From Clostridia bacterium (lineage in GTDB: Bacteria > Bacillota > DSM-521 > Neomoorellales > SLTJ01): a DNA stretch of 64,000 bases. Of this stretch, positions 21,519-40,690 are shown piece after piece. Within the stretch, counting starts at the first letter, position 1. Each line of letters opens with the position of its first letter. A model generated the notes under the pieces. That model did not search any database. It had not been told where the DNA came from and worked only from the letters and a program-made list of their open reading frames with translations. The stretch is from contig SLTJ01000048.1 in assembly GCA_004347685.1 (NCBI GenBank), positions 1 to 64,000 of the forward strand, read 5' to 3'. Made by a program: the position numbers and the translations under genes.

Positions 21519-22628
21519 TTAGGCCAGGCCGGCCACCCGTTCCCTTTTTCGCTTTTTGCGCAGGCTCACCATATCCACGAAGGCCTCCAGCCTGGTCACC
21601 AGGCCGGCCTCCCCGGTCTGCTCGTCCAGGAAGATAGTCATGACCGGGATACCTTGTTCGTGGCTGACCGTGGGCAAGATGGATTCGGCCACAATCTCCG
21701 GCATACAGGTAAGGGGCGCCACCTGGATGAGACCGTCAAAGCCTTGCCGGGCATAGTAGACGGCACTGCCTACCGTTTCCAGCCCGTGCCCGCCGACGAA
21801 ATGGTTGAGGTACGGGGCCGCCATCTTCTTAGCTTCCTTGGCGCTGCCTTTAACCCGCAGCAGCCCGCCAAAAAGGTGCTCGTTAATCCATTCGCTCAGA
21901 TAGATGCCCCGGGTAACTTCCGCCCCCAGGCGGCCCAGGTGCCGTTCCAGGTTCAGATTCATAAAGGGCTCCAGCACGGTGTATATTTCGCCCACCAAGG
22001 CGATGCGCACCACTTCTTCTTCCGCGCGGCCGGTTTCCACTGCGGCCAGGGCCGCGCTCGCCTCCTCCACGGCGGCCCTGATCGTTTTTTTGGTCCAGGC
22101 CTGGTCAATCCTGTCCCGCGCCTGCTCGTAAATCTTGTCAGCCGTGCCGTAAGCTGTCTCCCGGGCCCTGGTCTTCTCCACCAGTCGCTCCACATCGTCC
22201 ACGGCCTTGGTCTTCCACCAAGCTATCTGGGCGTAGTGAAGTCTCTCCCGCCAGCTCGTCCTGGCCACATAGTTCAACTTGTCTATCAGCTCCCGAAAAT
22301 GGGCATCGGGCGGCTCCAGCACTACCATCTCCATATCGTAACCCAGATCCTGCAATATTTCCCGCTGGATTTGGGCATAGTAGCCGAAACGGCACGGACC
22401 CACCCCGCCGGCCATGACCACCACCTCGGCCCCCATTTCAGCGGCTTCCAGGTAGTTGCCGAGGTTGATCTTCAGCGGCAGACAAGAAAACTCGGGCGCA
22501 TACTGGGTGCCCAGGCTCAGGGTTTTCTTGGTACACGGCGGCGGCACCACCGCTTCCTGGCCAAAACCGGCCACCAAAGCCCTGGCCGTAAGGTAGAGAT
22601 TGCCCATATGGGGAAAGGTAACCTTCAT
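21519..22628 (-). CDS. CoA-dehydratase-activase-related protein (COG3581 type)
   Basis: A 369-residue protein of the DUF2229/2-hydroxyglutaryl-CoA dehydratase-component family. Cysteines in PEFSCLPLKINLG, GGVGPCRFGYYAQIQ and PLTCMPE could hold an Fe-S cluster. The C-terminal motif IPVMTIFLDEQTGEAGLVTRLE is shared with the neighbouring gene at 22628-23608, so the two are paralogues and probable partners. ATG at 22628 overlaps that gene's stop (ATGA). No ATPase activase or dehydratase subunit accompanies them, so the client enzyme is unknown. Confidence 0.7.
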   Translation of the reverse strand: MKVTFPHMGNLYLTARALVAGFGQEAVVPPPCTKKTLSLGTQYAPEFSCLPLKINLGNYLEAAEMGAEVVVMAGGVGPCRFGYYAQIQREILQDLGYDMEMVVLEPPDAHFRELIDKLNYVARTSWRERLHYAQIAWWKTKAVDDVERLVEKTRARETAYGTADKIYEQARDRIDQAWTKKTIRAAVEEASAALAAVETGRAEEEVVRIALVGEIYTVLEPFMNLNLERHLGRLGAEVTRGIYLSEWINEHLFGGLLRVKGSAKEAKKMAAPYLNHFVGGHGLETVGSAVYYARQGFDGLIQVAPLTCMPEIVAESILPTVSHEQGIPVMTIFLDEQTGEAGLVTRLEAFVDMVSLRKKRKRERVAGLA

Positions 22629-23608
22629 CAGGAAGCCCCCTTCCAGGCCAGCATGTCGGTGAATGCCTCGATCCTGGTCTGTATCCCGGCCTCGCCGGTT
22701 TGCTCGTCAATGGTGATGTATAGAAAAGGTATTTTCCCCGAGCGGTGGCTGTACCGCTCCACCAGGTCTCCTACCAGGGAATCCGGGCCGCAGCCAAAGG
22801 AGGCCACGTGAATCAGGCCATTGATATCGCTTTGCTGCAAAAAGTGCAGGGTACTGCCGATGATGCGCTTGCCCAGGCTCCAAAACATGCGCTTGGGCAG
22901 CCGGGCCGCTTCCGTATTGATGACTTCGTCGGGCAGAAAATCAGGAGTGACCACGCTAGCGCCCAGCCGGGAAAGCCGGTCAATAATGTTCATGCTGATA
23001 TACCGGTCGTAGAGGTTGTAGGCATGACCCACCAAAGCCACTTTGAACCTCTTGGCCCCGGTATCCACCGTCAGTCCTTCCGCCTCACCGGCCAGGAAGC
23101 TCCAGACGTTGTCCACCATATGGCCTTGCCGTATCAGGCCTTCGGCATACTCCTGCGCTCGCGTGGCCTCGTGCCAGGCGGCCATGATCTCCTTTTTCTT
23201 GCCGGTGAAAAAACGCCCCACCTCCAGGACTAATTCCGGCAGCTTCTCCGGCTTCTTGCTCAGGTCAACGGTCACATCAATGATCCGCGGCAGGTCCTTG
23301 ATACTGGCCCGAAGCATATCCGGCAGCCCCATGAGCTTAGGACAGATGTAGGCCTTGTGTTCCACGCTCACCAGCCTAGGGAGGAAAAGGACATCCACCT
23401 GGCCGATGAGAGCCAGGACGTGGCCATAGAATACCTTGACCGGGAGGCAAGCCTCATCCACCGCCAGCTTCACTCCGTCATTAAGGACGGCCTTGTTGGT
23501 TTCCGGCGAAACGACCACTTCCGCGCCCAGAGCCTCCAGAAAGGCCTTCCACCATGGGAAGTAATAATAGTAAAACAGGGCCCGGGGGATACCTACCCTA
23601 AGCTTCAC
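22628..23608 (-). CDS. CoA-dehydratase-activase-related protein (COG3580/DUF2229 type)
   Basis: About 326 residues, starting KLRVGIPRALFYYYYFPWW, the usual N-terminus of the family. Conserved cysteines occur in VDEACLPVKVFYGH, AYICPKLMG and ASFGCGPDSL; the end carries IPFLYITIDEQTGEAGIQTR. GTG at 23608 was preferred (GAGAGG nine bases upstream); GTG at 23614 is possible. Operon with the next gene. Probably cytoplasmic and oxygen-sensitive; function inferred from family only. Confidence 0.7.
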   Translation of the reverse strand: MKLRVGIPRALFYYYYFPWWKAFLEALGAEVVVSPETNKAVLNDGVKLAVDEACLPVKVFYGHVLALIGQVDVLFLPRLVSVEHKAYICPKLMGLPDMLRASIKDLPRIIDVTVDLSKKPEKLPELVLEVGRFFTGKKKEIMAAWHEATRAQEYAEGLIRQGHMVDNVWSFLAGEAEGLTVDTGAKRFKVALVGHAYNLYDRYISMNIIDRLSRLGASVVTPDFLPDEVINTEAARLPKRMFWSLGKRIIGSTLHFLQQSDINGLIHVASFGCGPDSLVGDLVERYSHRSGKIPFLYITIDEQTGEAGIQTRIEAFTDMLAWKGAS

Positions 23609-23706
23609 CGCCACACACCTCTCTACTTTAGGAGGCTGCTGAAAAAACTTCGCCTGCCACTAATTATAACCATCCCCGATGCCATTTTCCACCCTTATTT
23701 GTTAAA

Positions 23707-25395: not shown

Positions 25396-25735
25396 ATAAA
25401 AAAAACTCCCTTTCGGGAGCTATATATACTCGTAGCTTTGCTCTCAAGCAAGGCCACGAGCTGGGGGCAAACTAAGTCGCCAGCCTTAGGATAGCTAGGT
25501 TGTATGTTTGAGGTAGTGGCCACAAAAGATATTGGTGGCTCTGCGACCCACCGGTTAGCGGTGAAAGCGCCAGGGAGGCGGGGGCTTATGCCCTTGGGAC
25601 ATAACCACTAATGAAAATAGGTGGAAGGCACGAACCTATTTTCTCGTCATACGGTAACTCTTAGCGAGTTGGGGTATCCGCCCAGCAGTCCCGCGAAGCA
25701 TAGGGGCCTCCTTAGCCGTCCGCCTCCAGCCAGCT
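25396..25735 (-). ncRNA. candidate structured RNA of about 330 nt, class unknown
   Basis: No coding frame fits, yet the stretch is rich in strong stems: AAAATAGG with CCTATTTT at 25613-25642, GGGCTTATGCCC near 25585, and a nested hairpin CTCGTGGC...GCTACGAG (25427-25463) with TTGCT/AGCAA inside. On the minus strand it ends in a clean terminator at 25398-25420. I compared from memory with tmRNA, RNase P RNA, SRP RNA, 6S RNA and common riboswitches and saw no match. It may instead be the remains of a mobile element. Confidence 0.45.
25398..25420 (-). terminator. Rho-independent terminator
   Basis: On the minus strand GCTCCC-GAAA-GGGAGT is followed by eight T. It ends the transcript of the structured stretch 25421-25735, or of merR. 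Confidence 0.75.
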
Positions 25736-25794
25736 AGGCTGAGTACCTACCACCCACCATACCTCGCAGCCCAGGCGTGCTTTTTCCAGCCCGC

Positions 25795-26375: not shown

Positions 26376-26600
26376 CTACTGATTTCCGATTTCCAGCCGG
26401 AAAACGTCGCTGTCCTCGCTTATTCTCACCTTCCAGCCACGGCCGGCCGCATGGCGGCTGATGTTGTCCCGCGCCGCGGCGCTGTCGGCCATGACAACAA
26501 ACCGGCCGCCGCCAGGCATGCTATCAATTTCTTTCTTTACCCGCAATACTGGCTCCGGGCACAGGAGGCCCCGGCAGTCAATTATCTTATCCTCCGCCAA
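26376..26600 (-). CDS. TusA/YedF-type sulfur or selenium carrier
   Basis: A 74-residue SirA/TusA-fold protein. The motif IIDCRGLLCPEPVLR contains the CPxP signature, whose cysteine (about residue 15) carries persulfide or selenide in relatives. Start is TTG at 26600 with GGAGGTGA five bases upstream; longer frames to 26681 lack a ribosome site. It follows yedE and the tRNA at 26754-26851 in the same direction. Pairing with YedE is seen in selenium-using bacteria as well as in thiosulfate uptake. Confidence 0.85.
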   Translation of the reverse strand: MAEDKIIDCRGLLCPEPVLRVKKEIDSMPGGGRFVVMADSAAARDNISRHAAGRGWKVRISEDSDVFRLEIGNQ

Positions 26601-26753
26601 TATGTTCACCTCCGGCAATGATCGCCAGTTAATTCTGCTACCCATGGCCCTGCGTAACCCGGCCGGGATGGCCCGGGCCACCTCCTGCCTGGTTAATCTT
26701 GTTGCCTGTAGCCCTACGTAACGCTTGTCTACACCTGGAGTTCAAGTCCCGGC

Positions 26754-26851
26754 TGGAGGAGGAGAGTGGGAATCGAACCCGACCCCAGGCCGCTTGTCGG
26801 TCCCGGCCACCGGGTTTGCAGCCCGTGGGGAGCACCAGCTCCATCCCCTCC
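26754..26851 (-). tRNA. tRNA-Cys (GCA) with tRNA-Sec-like architecture
   Basis: 98 nt including an encoded CCA (26756-26754). The 8-bp acceptor GGAGGGGA/TCTCCTCC is complete (one G-U). D arm: GGAGC-TGGT-GCTCC with a four-base loop. Anticodon loop CTGCAAA with GCA at 26819-26817; its stem GGG/CCC extends with one bulged G. Variable arm: CCGGG(A)CCG-ACAAG-CGGCCTGG, eight pairs with a bulge. T arm: GT(C)GGG-TTCGATT-CCCAC, one bulged C. Discriminator is U (26757). The long acceptor, tight D loop and long variable arm are tRNA-Sec traits; GCA plus U73 are cysteine identity elements. It starts 14 bases after the yedE stop. Confidence 0.8.
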
Positions 26852-26864
26852 CCGGTACCTGATC

Positions 26865-27920
26865 TCAGGCCCGGACCGGCTCCCGGTTGAACCAGGCCAG
26901 AAGCATAACAGCCATAATACCTGTGATTACGACTACCTGCCCGGCCAGCGGCACTCCCTGGGGGCTGGCTGCCAGGCCAAAGTTGTGGGCCGTGGCGGCC
27001 CCTGCCAGCATGCCCAGGATGGCCACGGCCGCATCGGTATTTCCTTCGCCAGCCAGCACCAGTTGGCGCAGGGGGCACCCGCCAAGGAGCACGGATCCCA
27101 TACCGGCCAGGCTCATACCTAGGAAATTCCAGAGAAACTGGTTGTGGGCTATGGGCTGATTGGCAAAGCCAGCATGAAAATTGCCGGTAAGCAAGGAGCC
27201 GGCAAAGGCCACGACTCCGACCGCGGCAAACCCGCTCAGCAGGTGGGTATCCCGGAACAGCAGAAAGTCGCGGATACCGCCCACCATGCAGAGGCGGGCC
27301 CGCTGCGCCAGGACCCCTACCGCCACGCCGGCGGCCAGGGCCACAAACACCGGCGCCCGCATGGAGCCCGGGCCTTCCTGGCTGAAGAAGATAAAGGCCG
27401 GCCTGGCCAGCAAGAGCACCAGCCCTGCCAGGACCAGGGCCGGGAAAACGTAACCGTTAACCTGCCGGAGCGGGTTAGCCCGGCCCAGGCTGAAGCCACG
27501 TTTCAGGAACTCGTTGCCGGCCGCCACCCCGGCCACCAGGCCGGCCAGGCCTATCAAAGCGTTCAGGTCGCCGGCAGCCAGTCGCAGCACCAGGCGCAGG
27601 GGACACCCCAGGAATACCAGCATACCCAGCATGACCAGGAAGCCCAGAAGAAAACGAGTAAGGGAACTGGCCCCTCCGGCGGGCCTAAACTCCCGGGTAG
27701 CCACGGCTACGCCAAAGGAACCCAGCGCCAGGCCAAGGATTTCCGGCCGGATGTACTGCGCTGCGGCTGCCCGGTGCAGGCCCAGGCCCCCGGCCGTGTC
27801 CCGTAGAAAGCAGGCAATGCAAAAGCCCATATTAGGCGGGTTGCCCAGGGCAACCAGACAGATGGCCAGGAGGCCCACGATACCACCGGCAAAAAGTAGT
27901 AGAGCTCTCTCCCGGGTCAA
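26865..27920 (-). CDS. YedE/YeeE-family membrane transporter
   Basis: A 351-residue protein with about ten membrane segments. Two internal repeats each carry the GCPLR motif (FLGCPLRLVLRLAAGD near residue 105 and LLGGCPLRQLVLAGEGN near 290), plus Cys in NMGFCIACFLRD and RARLCMVGGIRD. The family moves thiosulfate or, in the seleno_YedE subgroup, is tied to selenium metabolism. TTG at 27920 is chosen (AAGGAGG eight bases upstream). It leads the yedE-tRNA-tusA run. Confidence 0.87.
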   Translation of the reverse strand: MTRERALLLFAGGIVGLLAICLVALGNPPNMGFCIACFLRDTAGGLGLHRAAAAQYIRPEILGLALGSFGVAVATREFRPAGGASSLTRFLLGFLVMLGMLVFLGCPLRLVLRLAAGDLNALIGLAGLVAGVAAGNEFLKRGFSLGRANPLRQVNGYVFPALVLAGLVLLLARPAFIFFSQEGPGSMRAPVFVALAAGVAVGVLAQRARLCMVGGIRDFLLFRDTHLLSGFAAVGVVAFAGSLLTGNFHAGFANQPIAHNQFLWNFLGMSLAGMGSVLLGGCPLRQLVLAGEGNTDAAVAILGMLAGAATAHNFGLAASPQGVPLAGQVVVITGIMAVMLLAWFNREPVRA

Positions 27921-28118
27921 GAACAACACCTCCTTTCCCTTAGGCTGGTAAGAGATATTCTCCCCGGCAGAGAAAGTTCCTGGCAGAGCAAGTATGAGAA
28001 ATTCTTATTCTCCTGGTGGCGGCTAAAAGAATTGTTTATAGCCCTTTGCTGTCCGCTCGGCGAAGTTAATAAAGCTTCCTAATCGTGGCCCACTTCTTCT
28101 TGCCGCCGGCTTAACTCT

Positions 28119-40473: not shown

Positions 40474-40515
40474 AAGAAAAACCCACCTCCCATCCGCGTG
40501 AGAAGTAGCTTTGCT

Positions 40516-40690
40516 TACCAGGCAGGCAGGTTTCCTGGCTAGGGTTCACCACCGCCCTAACGCCTTCCCGGGTCTCCCCAGTGGCTTACGTGTCGGGGCG
40601 GCTCCCCCTCACAGTGGCGGGACCGCGCCGGATTCGCACCGGCTTCCCTCTTCGCCTGCTCATGCAGGCACCTGCTGGTACGCTTATACT
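40516..40690 (-). promoter_or_regulatory. cobalamin riboswitch
   Basis: Read on the minus strand, the core GGTGCGAATCC, GCGGTCCCGCCACTGTGA, AAGCCACTGGGGAGACC and the B12 box AGCCAGGAAACCTGCC appear in the right order. With the terminator at 40448-40473 it should repress btuFCD-cobN of set A when adenosylcobalamin is plentiful. Confidence 0.93.

Follow-up and report, generated by a model that had tools for sequence, protein, structure and literature searches.

A tRNA combining the shape of tRNA-Sec with cysteine identity has been described as selC* tRNA-Cys. According to a review (PMC7609411), it was first reported by Mukai et al. in 2017, occurs in anaerobic bacteria including Firmicutes, and joins a tRNA-Sec-like shape to U73 and a cysteine anticodon. 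Its description comprises an 8-bp acceptor stem, a long variable arm, an extended anticodon stem, a Cys (GCA) or opal (UCA) anticodon, and a bulged T arm given as 4 bp with a bulged A51a; its partner genes are selB* and cysS*. The tRNA-Sec itself (selC, RF01852) has a UCA anticodon and G73, and its serylation requires G73 (PMC5330540). Canonical tRNA-Cys has a 7/5 acceptor/T domain and a short variable loop, and the same review names the GCA anticodon and U73 as the main CysRS identity elements (PMC7609411). Allo-tRNAs (8/4 or 9/3) have a long acceptor and variable arm with SerRS identity elements, and are described as mostly serine isoacceptors.

We analysed a 64,000-nucleotide stretch of bacterial DNA, here called the window, in which ARAGORN calls a single tRNA, a tRNA-Cys(gca) of 98 nt at 26754-26851 on the minus strand. 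It shares with selC* tRNA-Cys the 8-bp acceptor, here covarying, the long variable arm, the extended anticodon stem and U73, and of the two described anticodons it has GCA. Its T arm is bulged too, but with a C and in a stem of 5 bp, and neither selB* nor cysS* is found in the window's genome. The overall shape of tRNA-Sec is shared to the point that the gene scores above the family threshold, but the window tRNA has GCA and U73, and the host has a separate selC. With canonical tRNA-Cys it shares GCA and U73 but not the architecture, having an 8-bp acceptor and an 8-pair variable arm; with allo-tRNAs it shares the long acceptor and variable arm but carries cysteine identity elements. We assign it, on its sequence, to selC* tRNA-Cys as published in 2017 and not to a new tRNA type. 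An earlier note on this DNA had already said that bulged, Sec-like minor tRNA-Cys species are reported from some bacteria, and this type is indeed known.

Fold and identity elements of the tRNA

The tRNA-Sec model RF01852 scores the gene at 51.8 bits, above its gathering threshold of 47. A covariance model, R1, built from 24 family sequences with the window tRNA among them, gives it 92.1 bits versus 28.4 bits for the canonical tRNA-Cys of the host. The earlier note had read a tRNA at this position, and both the ARAGORN call and the RF01852 score bear this out.

All parts of the tRNA lie on the minus strand. The acceptor stem of 8 bp (GGAGGGGA/TCTCCTCC) is formed by a 5' strand at 26844-26851 and a 3' strand at 26758-26765, the latter placed in the 24-sequence alignment, and six of its eight pairs show double changes among the 24 sequences. 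In the D arm (26829-26842), which has 5 bp and the 4-nt loop TGGT, all alignment cells are paired and four of the five pairs show double changes. The GCA anticodon (26817-26819), on which ARAGORN and the family alignment agree, sits in the loop CTGCAAA, closed by a stem of seven pairs with one bulge, a G at 26810 in the 3' strand. Sequence and alignment together define a variable arm of eight pairs with a bulged A at 26801 (26785-26806) and a T arm of 5 bp with a bulged C at 26781 (26766-26783). The gene ends in the U73 discriminator (26757) and an encoded CCA (26754-26757 with U73). This Sec-like anatomy, including the three bulges, had been described from the letters alone, and every element of it proved correct.

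The bulges are conserved to different degrees. That of the anticodon arm is found across the family alignment, that of the T arm is common but not universal, and that of the variable arm is missing in the nearest relative (L010). An A51a-like form of the T arm is present in delta-type relatives. The single-sequence minimum-free-energy fold of the window tRNA gives no cloverleaf (z -1.2), so that it is the comparison of related sequences on which this structure depends.

Family, covariation and distribution

We scanned 84,980 genomes, one per species, for the anticodon-arm and T-arm pattern, which demands GCA and exact arms and hence misses UCA or diverged members. Of the 72 matches, 62 are tRNAs of the general selC* type; the other ten were judged to be something else and excluded. 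Adding four tRNAs from the window genome and its relatives, some of which are metagenome-assembled genomes, gives a family set of 66. U73 occurs in all 66 when placed by acceptor pairing, with the placement score slightly favouring T and a few species represented twice. Six members (L058, L080, L087, L105, L116, L122), from Acidobacteria and Planctomycetes-type genomes, are tRNA-Cys-like with a long variable arm and a 7/5-looking acceptor/T domain, and may be a separate group.

Among 24 related tRNAs, 96.7% of the cells at 33 pairs are paired and 18 of the 33 pairs show double changes, values reached by none of 500 shuffled alignments. On this comparative record the window tRNA is a real, conserved minor cysteine isoacceptor with a tRNA-Sec-like shape.

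The earlier note had counted absence from close relatives against the gene, and the tRNA is in fact rare there: among 22 genomes of the class only 1 has it, and among 398 sampled from the phylum, 15. Because it turns up again in distant lineages, where its changes are compensatory, this rarity reflects a patchy distribution and probable transfer, not an artefact. The copy in one genome of a different family (G023) is 90% identical to the window tRNA.

Selenium genes beside the tRNA and in the host

The host has a canonical tRNA-Cys (C4:42636-42711; 76 nt) that lacks a long variable arm, one CysRS and one SelB above cut-off, and a selA-selB cluster with a selC nearby that carries G73; no second cysS or selB scores above cut-off in the window's genome. 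Given this set, the host is a Sec-decoding bacterium in which the window tRNA is an extra isoacceptor. Separately, an integrated element with a phage-type integrase and a Prim-Pol/D5 primase lies at G000:C6, ~7.1-15.8 kb (L157). It is flanked by an intact selC on one side and by a selC copy altered at its 5' end on the other, which suggests that the element inserted into the tRNA-Sec gene.

In the window the order is yedE-tRNA-tusA, all on the minus strand. The yedE gene (26865-27929; 354 aa), the sole copy in the genome, is of the selenium type (TIGR04112, 478 bits against a cut-off of 200), a model described as 'putative selenium transporter', and its stop lies 13 bases from the 5' end of the tRNA. 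Downstream of the tRNA is a tusA-like sulfurtransferase (26376-26681; PF01206, 2.9e-18), a 101-aa ORF whose TusA domain begins at residue 32 and whose true start is uncertain; its best NCBIfam match, to the N-terminal part of YedF, falls under that model's cut-off. TIGR04112/YedE is reported to be exclusive to selenium users, with SirA/TusA-like genes and 2-hydroxyglutaryl-CoA dehydratase/activase genes as neighbours (PMC5322559). Two DUF2229/HGD-D-type proteins, whose families are among those listed as YedE neighbours in selenium loci, are encoded in the window at 21519-23614 (minus strand), separated from tusA by merR, spoVAD and spoVAE genes. A structured non-coding stretch lies between the merR-like gene and spoVAD (25400-25760, minus strand); it has a terminator-like hairpin at its end (fold z -3.4), and no Rfam family matches it above threshold. 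Farther off is a cobalamin riboswitch (40507-40690, minus strand; RF00174, 116 bits).

The earlier note had found a functional link to yedE and tusA attractive, and the association is real and recurrent: a selC*-type tRNA adjoins yedE in at least eight genomes besides that of the window. It stands just upstream of yedE in an Ammonifex sp. (L064), a Desulfovirgula sp. (L098) and three Peptococcaceae (L114, L119, L127), and a YedE search in selC* genomes added Desulfallas sp. Bu1-1 (L182), Desulfoscipio geothermicus (L183) and Desulfotruncus arcticus (L188). Elsewhere the gene order is tRNA-yedE, with tusA next in several cases. We found no mention of yedE or tusA neighbours for selC* tRNA-Cys in the part of the review available (PMC7609411). 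The recurring arrangement suggests a role in selenium-linked protein synthesis.

Proximity to yedE is not general. Most Firmicutes copies of the tRNA are distant from it, and no yedE neighbours are found at L010, L011 and L012. The last three genomes listed above have a second selC* gene elsewhere (L121, L085 and L099), and their yedE-linked copies have altered bases in the D stem, anticodon stem or T loop; because these second copies look altered, yedE proximity is not required. One of the linked copies, at L182:2552-2648 (minus strand) before yedE, has an ACA anticodon, although its genome carries a GCA copy as well; it was found only through yedE and not by the tRNA pattern. A conserved ORF of ~71-77 aa with a Cys-rich C terminus follows the tRNA at L085, L099 and L121, and that of L099 has no Pfam match.

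In a tree of 40 YedE sequences, all nine tRNA-linked YedEs fall within one 15-member clade (98/93), which holds unlinked YedEs too. An exclusive clade of linked YedEs, seen when six stood alone in a 24-YedE tree, was rejected on the larger tree. Since L172, which belongs to the window's own family, and L173-L175, which belong to its order, have YedEs outside this clade, the tree suggests that the yedE-tRNA module reached the window lineage by transfer. In two of these relatives (L172, L175) yedE is followed by a TusA-like gene, but the tRNA is missing.

In other lineages the selenium connection takes another form. At ~18 loci, from Deltaproteobacteria, Actinomycetota and other groups, the tRNA is followed by a SelB gene, and in genomes with two SelBs the tRNA-linked ones cluster together (89/69), apart from the second copies, in a tree whose row L201, read in the wrong frame, is disregarded. 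The pairing has been reported for Syntrophobacterales and Desulfobacterales in the review (PMC7609411), and the Actinomycetota members extend it beyond these orders. SelB is present in 46 of 50 selC* genomes tested, and its absence from the other four may be incompleteness. It is also common in phylum relatives at large (49 of 61), so the co-occurrence is weak within the phylum. Other lineages further place the tRNA beside fdhA, mvhD-like and hdrA-like genes, named by sequence inspection, in which a Cys stands where Sec is usual or close to that site.

Possible roles of the tRNA

Decoding UGC/UGU with cysteine, which the earlier note had put forward, is partly supported and is the most likely candidate function of the window tRNA. 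Roughly an even call is the fuller reading that it is a Cys-charged, SelB-compatible minor isoacceptor, co-expressed with selenium genes and supplying cysteine at these codons. The tRNA would be transcribed together with yedE and tusA and then cut from the operon RNA. The single housekeeping CysRS would charge it with cysteine via U73 and GCA, and the SelB-like acceptor/T domain and long variable arm would let the single SelB bring it to some of the UGC/UGU codons, a task that may fall to the adjacent second SelB in other phyla. Placement in the yedE operon would tie tRNA supply to selenium status, such that the Sec-shaped Cys-tRNA is made when the selenium genes are on, for example supporting Cys forms of selenoproteins under selenium shortage.

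When M. maripaludis is depleted of selenium, its yedE mRNA goes up by 5.3 log2 and a TusAD system by ~4.5 log2; among the transporter deletions tested in that organism, including yedE, none was clearly tied to a selenium species (PMC11097638). The induction data, from a distant archaeon, would fit a role in selenium shortage. Against the SelB-linked reading stand this archaeal source, the normal host tRNA-Cys, which already reads UGC/UGU, the many Firmicutes copies away from yedE, the altered look of the second, yedE-linked copies, and the frequency of SelB in phylum relatives that lack the tRNA. A bolder form of this reading, which we regard as unlikely, is that the yedE-linked tRNA responds to selenium: scarcity would bring on its production, it would hand Cys-tRNA to SelB, and cysteine would be directed to particular UGC/UGU codons in selenium-related enzymes, with the tRNA, not a protein, switching the proteome between selenium and sulfur forms.

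The rival that survives best, a tenable though minority prospect, is an ordinary extra tRNA-Cys, delivered by EF-Tu to all Cys codons, for which proximity to yedE records a history of module co-transfer and not a function. The tRNA is found in many unrelated loci, co-transfer is suggested by where the YedE falls in its tree, and the bulge in the T arm might give back a geometry that suits EF-Tu. However, an ordinary isoacceptor would not need an 8-bp acceptor, a long variable arm, and SelB or yedE neighbours that recur across phyla.

It is rather improbable that SECIS-like hairpins guide a SelB-delivered tRNA to Cys codons in genes of selenoprotein families, where it would place cysteine or, through a mixed route, selenocysteine. 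The tRNAs that neighbour selB* and the Cys-bearing fdhA, mvhD-like and hdrA-like genes speak for this reading, but no convincing conserved hairpin was found after the few Cys codons inspected in neighbouring fdhA/mvhD-like genes, and U73 argues against SerRS and SelA on the selenocysteine route. Sec insertion at Cys codons, which the earlier note had entertained, is not supported: Sec charging is unlikely because the tRNA has U73, as does the whole family, tRNA-Sec needs G73 (PMC5330540), and the host's own selC has it. A true tRNA-Sec with an altered anticodon is ruled out by U73 and the separate host selC.

TusA family proteins act in sulfur relay, and the tRNA lies between transporter and sulfurtransferase genes, a setting that would suit a role outside translation. 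The tRNA could supply a biosynthetic enzyme with Cys-tRNA, carry sulfur or selenium together with TusA, or mark a site for processing in the yedE-tusA mRNA. We think any such role quite improbable: the anticodon loop, U73 and CCA are conserved, none of which a processing signal needs, and in most genomes the same tRNA is far from yedE and tusA. The carrier role proposed earlier is not supported. A decayed or chance tRNA-like sequence, to which absence from close relatives and the fold without a cloverleaf might point, has next to no likelihood left, being rejected on the covariation across 24 tRNAs, with the intact identity elements and the 90% identical copy in a different family also against it.

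The selC* tRNA-Cys has been described from its structure and has no settled cellular job in the literature consulted. Its repeated pairing with a selenium-type transporter in one Firmicutes group and, in other groups, with a second SelB is a pointer to selenium-linked translation and supplies specific genes that can be tested. Should the tRNA respond to the supply of selenium, a special tRNA would link the genetic code to a trace element.
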